DNA of 64,000 nt from Verrucomicrobiia bacterium. Lineage in GTDB: Bacteria; Verrucomicrobiota; Verrucomicrobiia; Limisphaerales; Fontisphaeraceae. A program made the translations under genes and the position numbers. The stretch covers positions 62,001 to 126,000 of the forward strand of contig JAOAIT010000061.1 of NCBI GenBank assembly GCA_026414565.1, in the 5' to 3' direction. This document shows positions 36,702 to 38,767 of the stretch, piece after piece. The notes under the pieces were generated by a model, which saw only the letters and a program-made list of their open reading frames with translations, ran no database searches and had not been told where the DNA came from. How positions within the stretch are numbered: the first letter of the stretch is position 1; each line of letters starts with the position of its first letter.

Positions 36702-36718
36702 GTTTGGCATTGCCAAAC
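36702..36718. promoter_or_regulatory. perfect dyad upstream of the thrS leader
   Basis: GTTTGGCATTGCCAAAC is a perfect inverted repeat (arms of 8 bases, one-base centre). It lies 28 bases before the thrS leader peptide. The inner TTGCCA (36710-36715) with TAGGCT (36734-36739, 18 bases on) could be a weak promoter, in which case the dyad would overlap the -35 box and could be an operator. It has no T run, so it is not a terminator of the sulfatase gene. Confidence 0.5.
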
Positions 36719-36746
36719 GGCGGGGGGGTGGGGTAGGCTGCACAGG

Positions 36747-36791
36747 ATGCGAACCGTTCTGGCCGCGCCTGAGATGACGACGACCGCCTAA
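36747..36791 (+). CDS. putative threonine-codon leader peptide (attenuator)
   Basis: A 14-codon open frame: MRTVLAAPEMTTTA then TAA. It has four Thr in 14 residues, three of them consecutive (ACG ACG ACC at 36777-36785) just before the stop. TAGG sits about 9 bases before the ATG. It lies upstream of an intrinsic terminator and of thrS, the arrangement of amino-acid-sensing leader peptides such as thrL, trpL or the pheST leader. Stalling on Thr codons when charged tRNA-Thr is scarce would be the sensor. Expression not shown; the codon clustering and position are the evidence. Confidence 0.7.
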   Translation: MRTVLAAPEMTTTA

Positions 36792-36793
36792 GG

Positions 36794-36835
36794 GTTCACG
36801 GTGAAGGCCGCCGTGAACACCCACGCCTCGCACTG
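36794..36835 (+). promoter_or_regulatory. protector hairpin and possible antiterminator, thrS leader
   Basis: Arm GTTCACGG (36794-36801) pairs perfectly with CCGTGAAC (36811-36818). An alternative stem pairs 36799-36803 and 36805-36808 with 36831-36835 and 36825-36828 (about nine pairs, one G-U, one small internal loop). The two stems are mutually exclusive. The second also ties up the left arm of the terminator at 36823-36849, so it can act as an antiterminator. Structures were paired by eye, not folded by energy. Confidence 0.5.
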
Positions 36836-36853
36836 ACCGTTCGAGGCGTTTTT
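36823..36853 (+). terminator. intrinsic terminator (attenuator) before thrS
   Basis: ACGCCTCG (36823-36830), an 11-base loop, CGAGGCGT (36842-36849), then TTTTTGTTT: a classical intrinsic terminator placed between the leader peptide and thrS, 40 bases before the thrS ATG. Since it would stop the transcript before the gene, it makes sense only as a regulated attenuator. The sulfatase gene ends 163 bases upstream, so this is not its ordinary terminator. Confidence 0.8.
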
Positions 36854-36892
36854 GTTTGGGGCGACGGCGCGACGGCGGGCAAGAGGATTGAT

Positions 36893-38767
36893 ATGGCAGA
36901 GCAAGCACAAGCTGGCGAACGCAAGAGTTTGGAACAACGCAACCAGATGTCGGAGCTGGAGCGGCTGCGGCACTCCTGCGCGCATGTGATGGCCACGGCG
37001 ATATTGCGGTTGTGGCCGGACGCGCAGTTTGCCTACGGCCCGCCGGTGGAGAATGGTTTTTATTACGATCTGGAATGCGCGCATCGCATCACGCCGGAGG
37101 ATTTTCCCCGCATTGAGGAGGAGATGCGCAAGGAGATCAAGGCGAACCACCCGTTTGAGAAGATCGTGGTCACGCGCGAGCAGGCCATCCGGGACGCGCA
37201 GAGCGGGCGGCTGGGGGCGTTGAGCGAGCGGCCGGGGCAGCCGAGCAAGTTCAAGCTGGATCTGCTGAACCAGATTCCGGAGGGGGAGCCGATTTCGTAC
37301 TACCGGAACGGGGATTTCATTGATCTGTGCGCGGGGCCGCATGTGATGCGGACGGGCAACATTGGCGCGTTCAAGCTGACGAGCGTGGCCAGCGCCTATT
37401 ACAAGGGGGACGAGCGGAATCCGCAGTTGCAGCGGATTTACGGCACCGCCTTCAAGAACAAGACGCAGCTTGAGGAATGGCTCAAGATGCAGGAGGAGGC
37501 CAAAAAGCGGGATCATCGCAAGATTGGGACGGAGATGGGCCTGTTTTTCATGGATCCGGAATACACCGGGCCGGGGATGCCGTTGTGGCTGCCGAAGGGG
37601 ACGGTGCTGGTGGAGGAGCTGGAGAAGCTGGCGAAGGAAACGGAGTTTGCCGCGGGGTATGTGCGGGTGCGCACGCCGCATGTGGCCCGGGAAAAGATGT
37701 ACCTGACCAGCGGGCATCTGCCGTACTACGCGGAGAGCATGTTTCCGCCGATGGAATTGAAGGGCGAGGAGGGCGAGGCGGGGGGGGAGGGGGCCGGGGC
37801 GGCGGTGAGCCGGTACTATCTCAAGGCGATGAACTGCCCGCATCATCACCGCATTTTTGCGGCGGAGCCGCGCAGTTACCGGGATCTGCCGCTGCGGCTG
37901 GCGGAGTACGGCTGCTGTTACCGGTATGAGCAGTCCGGCGAGTTGTTCGGCCTGATGCGCGTGCGTTCGTTGAACATGAACGATGCGCACATCTACTGCA
38001 CGGAGGAGCAGTTTGCCGAGGAGTTCAAGGCCGTGAACGAGATGTACCTGAAATACTTCAAGATTTTCGGCCTGGAGAAGTACGTGATGCGCTTCAGCAC
38101 GCACGATCCGGCGCGGCTGGGACAGAAGTTTGTGAACGAGCCGGAGCTGTGGTTGAAAACCGAGGCCATGGTGCGGCGGGTGTTGCAGGAGAGCGGGATC
38201 AACTTTGTGGAGGTGCCCAACGAGGCGGCGTTTTACGGGCCGAAGATTGACGTGCAGGTGTGGAGCGCCATCGGGCGCGAGTTCACCATTGCCACCAACC
38301 AGGTGGACTTTGCGGTGCCGAAGCGGTTTGGCCTGGAGTACCGGGATCGGGACAATACGATGAAAACGCCGCTGTGCATCCACCGCGCGCCGCTGGGCAC
38401 GCATGAGCGGTTCATCGGCTTTTTGATTGAGCACTACGCCGGCAATTTCCCGTTGTGGCTGGCGCCGGAGCAGGTGCGGGTGCTGCCGGTGACCGAGGCG
38501 CAGCTCGAGTACGGGCGCAGCCTGGTGCAGGAGTTGCGCGGGCAGCAGGTGCGGGCCGAGCTGGAGTTCAGCAACGACAAGCTCATGGGGCGCATCCAGC
38601 GCGCCGAGGAGGCCCGGGTGCATCACATCCTGGTGGTGGGCGGCCGGGAGCAGGCGGCCAACGCGGTGGCGGTGCGGGTGCACGGCAAGGGCCAGCAGGG
38701 CGTGCGGCCGCGCGAGGAAGTGGTGCGGGAGATTCTGGAGAAAATCCGGCTGCGGGCGGCGGATTAA
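36893..38767 (+). CDS. thrS: threonyl-tRNA synthetase, lacking the TGS domain
   Basis: Class II synthetase charging tRNA-Thr. The 624-residue protein starts almost directly with the editing domain: HSCAHVMA (His27 and His31) and DLCAGPHVM near 144-152 give its catalytic residues. Then come the catalytic core (MNCPHHHRIFA, RYEQSGELFGLMRVRSLNMNDAHIY) and an anticodon-binding C-terminus. The roughly 60-residue N-terminal TGS domain of the E. coli enzyme is absent, yet the total is only slightly shorter because of insertions, including a Gly/Glu-rich one near residues 285-300. AAGAGG six bases before the ATG is a good ribosome site. Preceded by the leader-peptide attenuator described separately. 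Confidence 0.97.
   Translation: MAEQAQAGERKSLEQRNQMSELERLRHSCAHVMATAILRLWPDAQFAYGPPVENGFYYDLECAHRITPEDFPRIEEEMRKEIKANHPFEKIVVTREQAIRDAQSGRLGALSERPGQPSKFKLDLLNQIPEGEPISYYRNGDFIDLCAGPHVMRTGNIGAFKLTSVASAYYKGDERNPQLQRIYGTAFKNKTQLEEWLKMQEEAKKRDHRKIGTEMGLFFMDPEYTGPGMPLWLPKGTVLVEELEKLAKETEFAAGYVRVRTPHVAREKMYLTSGHLPYYAESMFPPMELKGEEGEAGGEGAGAAVSRYYLKAMNCPHHHRIFAAEPRSYRDLPLRLAEYGCCYRYEQSGELFGLMRVRSLNMNDAHIYCTEEQFAEEFKAVNEMYLKYFKIFGLEKYVMRFSTHDPARLGQKFVNEPELWLKTEAMVRRVLQESGINFVEVPNEAAFYGPKIDVQVWSAIGREFTIATNQVDFAVPKRFGLEYRDRDNTMKTPLCIHRAPLGTHERFIGFLIEHYAGNFPLWLAPEQVRVLPVTEAQLEYGRSLVQELRGQQVRAELEFSNDKLMGRIQRAEEARVHHILVVGGREQAANAVAVRVHGKGQQGVRPREEVVREILEKIRLRAAD

Follow-up and report, generated by a model that had tools for sequence, protein, structure and literature searches.

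The locus described here raises the question of whether a short open reading frame with adjacent Thr codons, located together with two hairpins upstream of thrS in a bacterium of the order Limisphaerales (Verrucomicrobiota), controls the transcription of this gene and by which mechanism it might do so. The parts of the element in the window, i.e. the whole stretch of 64,000 nucleotides that was analyzed, are listed in Table 1. The 14-codon frame, the three Thr codons, the hairpin of 8 bp (H1) and the intrinsic terminator (T), which an earlier inspection without database searches (here referred to as the sequence-only reading) had described, could all be located in the DNA as proposed. As outlined below, comparative sequence analysis and folding indicate that the element is very probably a Thr-codon transcription attenuator of thrS. 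This evidence comprises the Thr codons, their frame, a fixed spacing, H1, T and a modeled ribosome position that changes H1 only.

Table 1. Parts of the thrS leader in the window
Feature	Position	Strand	Parts and basis
Predicted sigma-70-type promoter	36710..36739	+	-35 TTGCCA 36710-36715, 18-nt spacer, -10 TAGGCT 36734-36739; sequence
Leader peptide ORF, 14 codons, MRTVLAAPEMTTTA	36747..36791	+	ATG 36747, stop TAA 36789-36791; sequence and conservation in 120 relatives
Regulatory Thr codons ACG ACG ACC	36777..36785	+	codons -4 to -2 before stop; conserved in relatives
Hairpin H1	36794..36818	+	arms 36794-36801 / 36811-36818, 8 perfect pairs; covariation
Intrinsic terminator T	36823..36857	+	arms 36823-36830 / 36842-36849; U tract UUUUUGUUU 36849-36857
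thrS, threonyl-tRNA synthetase, regulated gene	36893..38767	+	TIGR00418 589 bits, Pfam domains

In the window, H1 begins directly 3' of the leader stop codon, the core pairs of T start 4 nt past H1, and 35 nt separate the end of T from the start of thrS, whose ATG is directly preceded by AGAGG. The TIGR00418 score of the encoded protein lies above the cut-off and is the sole above-cut-off match in the source genome. The protein contains the Pfam domains tRNA-synt_2b, tRNA_SAD and HGTP_anticodon; a Pfam TGS match was not obtained, and the N-terminal TGS domain is seemingly absent. No Rfam family matched the thrS leader in the window at gathering scores, or near the leader at a relaxed threshold. 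At gathering scores a tRNA gene was the only match in the window, and the T-box covariance model gave no match near the leader at the relaxed threshold either. By this Rfam result the element is not a T-box, as the sequence-only reading had stated.

Relatives of thrS were gathered by protein similarity, and the DNA upstream of them was inspected. An alignment of 27 leaders was then used for a covariance model, which was run on whole genomes. Of the 320 genomes of the order, 137 contain the element, nearly always as a single match; the other 183 gave no match with the model and are counted against the best explanation. Strong matches are nearly all located 5' of thrS at distances of 1-750 nt, and weak matches, with scores of less than about 33 bits, correspond for the most part to ordinary terminators. 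An intrinsic terminator with a GC-rich hairpin and a U tract is conserved in all strong matches. The same hairpins are present in a congener (L006) with a 95% identical ThrS and the leader peptide MRTVWAAPETTTTTA. In a sample of the phylum comprising 388 genomes, the window's genome alone gave a strong match, and four weak matches were obtained in other orders or classes, the best of which (L219) is a plain gene-end terminator.

Furthermore, 2.16 Mb (both strands counted) were scanned with a rule that demanded at least three Thr codons, a stop codon, an abutting hairpin and a terminator. This yielded 34 sites, 33 of which are thrS leaders; the copy in the window is missed by the strict rule because its minimum-energy terminator runs into the tail. 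Recurring in the congener and across the order, the arrangement of the thrS leader is, by sequence comparison, in excess of chance.

The Thr codons themselves were analyzed in 120 distinct leaders. Thr is encoded at position -2 in 113 of these, at -3 in 110 and at -4 in 103 (counts uncorrected for shared ancestry), and at position -1 in only three. All four synonyms are used at codon -2 (ACG 38, ACC 35, ACT 33, ACA 7), and with this synonymous variation at conserved codons, it is Thr itself that is selected. AC-triplets occur 410 times in the leader frame as compared to 2 and 54 times in the other frames, again uncorrected for ancestry. The position of the stop codon is fixed, while its identity varies (TAG 103, TAA 11, TGA 6). 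An RNA motif is an unlikely cause of this pattern, because third positions are free while amino acid, frame and stop position are fixed. The leader ORF is thus very probably under selection for its Thr codons in the predicted frame. Together with H1 and T, which are likewise conserved in relatives, these codons support the proposal of the sequence-only reading that a Thr leader peptide and an attenuator precede thrS.

The predicted promoter was compared in 117 relatives. TTGCCA is the -35 element in 67 and a spacer of 17 nt is present in 77 of them. The -10 element ends 6-7 nt 5' of an in-frame ATG or GTG in 61 and at most 15 nt from it in 87; in the window, this distance is 7 nt. A generic promoter scan reported no promoter. 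From the position of the -10 element relative to the start codon, transcription is predicted to begin at or next to this codon, which would result in a leaderless mRNA. The leader ORF is therefore probably leaderless.

H1 and T are well supported as structures. For the two together, 95.8% of the alignment cells in the relatives are paired, and 54 two-sided changes were counted versus 20 in shuffles, none of 500 shuffles reaching as high a value; in this test for covariation, of the kind suggested by the sequence-only reading, H1 covaries strongly. According to minimum-energy folds from a single program, H1 starts pairing at the third nucleotide of the stop codon in 95 of 117 leaders, the gap between H1 and T measures 0-3 nt in 113, usually with no overlap, and the distance from stop to T amounts to 23-31 nt in nearly all leaders (median 27 nt). 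In these folded sequences the regulatory codons, the stop codon, H1 and T are locked in register.

The sequence of the inner stem and the loop of H1 is not conserved in the leader alignment. Its inner pairs covary, whereas the outer four pairs, GCGU:ACGC, are nearly invariant and hardly covary, which hints at a second role and counts against the explanation favored below. The base of H1 corresponds to 36792-36797 / 36815-36821 in the window, whose genus is among the exceptions. T ends in a leader-specific tail, U5-G-U3: GTTT follows the U run in 70 of 116 thrS leaders, whereas among 99 terminators found elsewhere in the clade only 3 have it. We had considered GTTT as a generic terminator tail and rejected this on the same unbiased count, as the weak matches sharing GTTT had been chosen by the model.

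Two variants depart from the common layout. In L202 the stop codon lies inside an H1 of 61 nt, which still starts just past the last Thr codon and touches T, and in L190 H1 overlaps T by 3-4 nt, the two hairpins being mutually exclusive.

As known from toeprint geometry, a bacterial ribosome extends about 12 nt 3' of the base with which the A-site codon begins. With this geometry, a ribosome that occupies the first of the conserved Thr codons reaches as far as the stop codon, and 36794-36801 remain free, while a ribosome at the stop codon covers the 5' arm of H1. H1 would thus be the form adopted under starvation. The masking logic of the sequence-only reading, in which a stalled ribosome was to cover the beginning of H1, is reversed by this geometry.

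In masked folding of the 117 leaders, the probability of H1 was 1.0 as long as the mask did not go past the stop codon; it fell to 0.66 when the mask reached 3 nt further, H1 then still being present in most leaders, and to 0 at 6 nt. In nearly all leaders T kept a probability of about 1 whatever the position of the ribosome. As H1 usually does not overlap T, T forms in every state on naked RNA, and H1 is, in this model, the only structure switched by the position of the ribosome. Folding with and without masked bases, as proposed by the sequence-only reading, thus shows H1 to depend on the ribosome in the sense opposite to its scheme, and leaves T unaffected in nearly all of the 117 leaders. 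Mutually exclusive pairing of antiterminator and terminator as in trp was not seen in nearly all of them, L190 being the exception. With T present in every state, it is the geometry and no computed switch that supports the antitermination step. The leuA leader from the window's genome served as a control and was folded in the same way, giving a probability of T of 0.005 in the stalled state and 1.0 with the ribosome at the stop codon; the corresponding values for the leuA leader of the congener (L274) are 0.28 and 1.0. Masked folding shows the classic switch in leuA and is thus able to detect one.

From these data we infer the start of transcription, the stalling, the direction of the response and the way in which H1 would block T. 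RNA polymerase would start at the leader start codon or within a nucleotide or two of it, and a ribosome would load on the 5' end and trail the polymerase. When Thr-tRNA is plentiful, the ribosome would reach the stop codon and cover the 5' arm of H1, so that no H1 would be present while T is made; without H1, T would close and transcription would end upstream of thrS. Under a shortage of Thr-tRNA, the ribosome would halt on the Thr codons and reach no further than the stop codon, and H1 would form right ahead of it. Located 0-3 nt from T, H1 would occupy RNA that needs to be single-stranded beside the base of T in the exit channel of the polymerase, and it would also hold a strand otherwise able to zip into the U tract. 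T would thereby be antagonised, and the polymerase would read into thrS.

If starvation is to raise thrS expression, H1 must oppose T in this scheme, and on balance we favor H1 as the antitermination form. Behind the hybrid, a stretch of several nucleotides of RNA lies within RNA polymerase, so that a hairpin 0-3 nt from the base of T must sit where T closes. If left free, the 3' arm of H1 may allow T to extend its pairing into the U tract. For the final 2-3 pairs of a terminator, closure has been reported to be essential, and a ribosome close upstream has been reported to be inhibitory to a terminator (PMC4824070). The variants L202 and L190 keep the abutment or the exclusion and the ilvB leader of the clade described below is alike, which leads to our proposal that H1 opposes T by abutting it. 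Whether H1 indeed acts by abutment and not by base-pair competition, as the geometry suggests, is nearly but not quite an even call. The account as a whole, i.e. a ribosome-mediated attenuator of thrS that senses charged tRNA-Thr and is antiterminated by an abutting H1, appears likely.

Base-pair competition was nevertheless considered in several forms. The antiterminator of the sequence-only reading, 36799-36808 with 36825-36835, can be drawn in the window, its 9 pairs being interrupted by an internal loop. It lacks conservation, however: its mean duplex energy is -2.8 over 117 relatives versus -2.9 in shuffles, and 45.6% of the cells are paired versus 44.9%. With both energy and pairing at the level of shuffles in the relatives, we rejected this candidate. 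When the ribosome is placed at the stop codon, the 3' arm of H1 pairs in most leaders with the tail behind the U run. This pairing, with 6.4 pairs as compared to 5.4-5.6 for shuffled tails, is retained as a possible contributor only.

In a textbook form of competition, the 5' arm of H1 (GCGU) would pair with the 5' arm of T (ACGC) as antiterminator upon stalling, and H1 would be only an intermediate or protector. H1 and T do repeat the words GCGU, ACGC, ACGCC and GGCGU almost without variation (107 and 108 of 117), they truly overlap in L190, and leuA of the same genome works in this manner. However, this pairing comprises 4-5 pairs only, as compared to 8-12 in H1, and the probability of T in the stalled state is about 1. 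At the base step that follows, co-change is absent (51 of 93 complementary versus 47.5 expected), and the pairing is absent in the window and in the congener, where H1 is kept with changed bases. We therefore rejected the pairing, which H1 dominates, and regard an antitermination by such competition as unlikely.

Similarly improbable is that H1 serves as a polymerase pause or ribosome-spacing hairpin and that antitermination occurs by another step, e.g. by proximity of the ribosome to T. The first hairpin of classic leaders is a pause site. Moreover, the median distance from stop to T of 27 nt equals the distance at which a ribosome on a stop codon ceases to repress a terminator in E. coli (PMC4824070). 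Readthrough upon starvation would however not be explained in this way, as stalling keeps the ribosome further away from T than arrival at the stop codon does. By eye, no conserved pause consensus stood out 3' of H1. That amino acids are not sensed at all, the ORF being incidental to a constitutive terminator of the upstream gene and a hairpin bound by ThrRS or another protein, is very improbable even though thrS of E. coli is autoregulated by ThrRS and the base of H1 is conserved in sequence, because Thr is kept at the amino acid level in one frame with synonymous changes, start, stop and promoter are in register, and the inner stem and loop of H1 lack sequence conservation.

How does the attenuator favored here compare to known systems? 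Ribosome-mediated attenuators of Proteobacteria are found at trp, his, leu, thr and ilv, and at pheST as a synthetase case. The thrS leader shares with them a short ORF, adjacent codons for the sensed amino acid, a stop codon near the regulated hairpin and a terminator before the gene; the spacing from the regulatory codons to the first hairpin arm resembles that of trpL. It differs from them in its predicted leaderless ORF, the regulated gene, thrS, and the phylum, Verrucomicrobiota, and by a single hairpin between codons and T that in nearly all members abuts T and does not share an arm with it. The features of leader-peptide attenuation are thus present, whereas the mutual exclusion of the trp type is, in the modeled folds, absent from nearly all members. 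To call this the classic logic of amino acid attenuation, as the sequence-only reading had done, is too strong, as nearly all of them lack any evident base-pair competition with the terminator.

E. coli thrL likewise combines Thr codons with attenuation; it controls biosynthesis, however, and its antiterminator overlaps the terminator. The operator of E. coli thrS also serves the control of this gene, but it is translational and bound by ThrRS. Like the leader described here, the T-box of Firmicutes senses the charging of the cognate tRNA and controls a terminator before a synthetase gene; the tRNA is bound directly there, whereas a translated ORF would be the sensor here. Leader-peptide attenuation of synthetase genes outside Proteobacteria is known from leuS and trpS of Streptomyces, described as classical (PMC1262725). 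In contrast to the thrS leader, these actinobacterial attenuators have separate antiterminator and terminator hairpins, and no thrS example is among them (PMC1262725). Leader-peptide attenuators have also been described for hisS and hisZ in bacilli (PMC2965389). Two hairpins beside a terminator favor readthrough in the ANTAR systems as well, where protein-stabilised dual hairpins with hexaloops act as antiterminators and the second overlaps the terminator (PMC8934654), but no leader peptide is involved.

In the open-access literature, we found neither a leader-peptide attenuator of thrS nor any such attenuator in Verrucomicrobia or Verrucomicrobiota, in line with the remark of the sequence-only reading that these leaders are little described in the phylum. 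An almost uncultured order would hence gain an amino-acid-sensing route to the control of a synthetase that is neither a T-box nor ThrRS autoregulation. If H1 is the antiterminator, it would represent a simple way to override a terminator, invisible to folding programs and searches that look for overlapping pairings.

Further leaders were found in the same clade. In the window's genome, leuA (L275, G000:C45, match at L275:1501) has its own leader peptide with the codons CTG CTG CTG TTG, and its antiterminator overlaps the terminator in masked folding, which corresponds to the classical type. The ilvB leader of the clade is rich in Val and Leu, e.g. MIKNVQQVLVVVVVGGVAGACRG, and unrelated in sequence to the thrS leader (loci L231 (G000:C52), L232 and L223-L228). 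Its hairpin TTGTCGA/TCGACAA forms exclusively with a stalled ribosome and leaves a gap of 0-3 nt to the terminator ACCCACG..CGTGGGT, whose probability stays at 1.0. By these model folds, the ilvB leader has the same abutting design as the thrS leader. For pheS, trpE, hisG and ileS no comparable leader was recognised, the pheS matches being terminators of the preceding gene. We put forward only tentatively the wider view of an attenuator spread throughout the order, in which H1 antiterminates without pairing to T by abutting it at 0-3 nt, with ilvB following the same design and the ORF being leaderless.

Some relatives show deviating arrangements. In L078 and L040, a gene of about 500 nt, which by eye resembles the LURP-one family, is located between the leader and thrS, and the leader may therefore control a two-gene unit there. 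A divergent thrS leader in L046 (near 2780-2870) has a hairpin that precedes the Thr codons. In L015 (1328-1438) and L017 (2746-2856), a longer divergent leader is present, with the stop codon within a larger hairpin before T. Finally, thrS genes close to this clade were observed on public MAG contigs whose records carry the names Akkermansia muciniphila, Klebsiella pneumoniae or Opitutus (L037, L038, L049, L059, L061-L063, L067, L081, L084), which suggests mislabelled or mixed bins.
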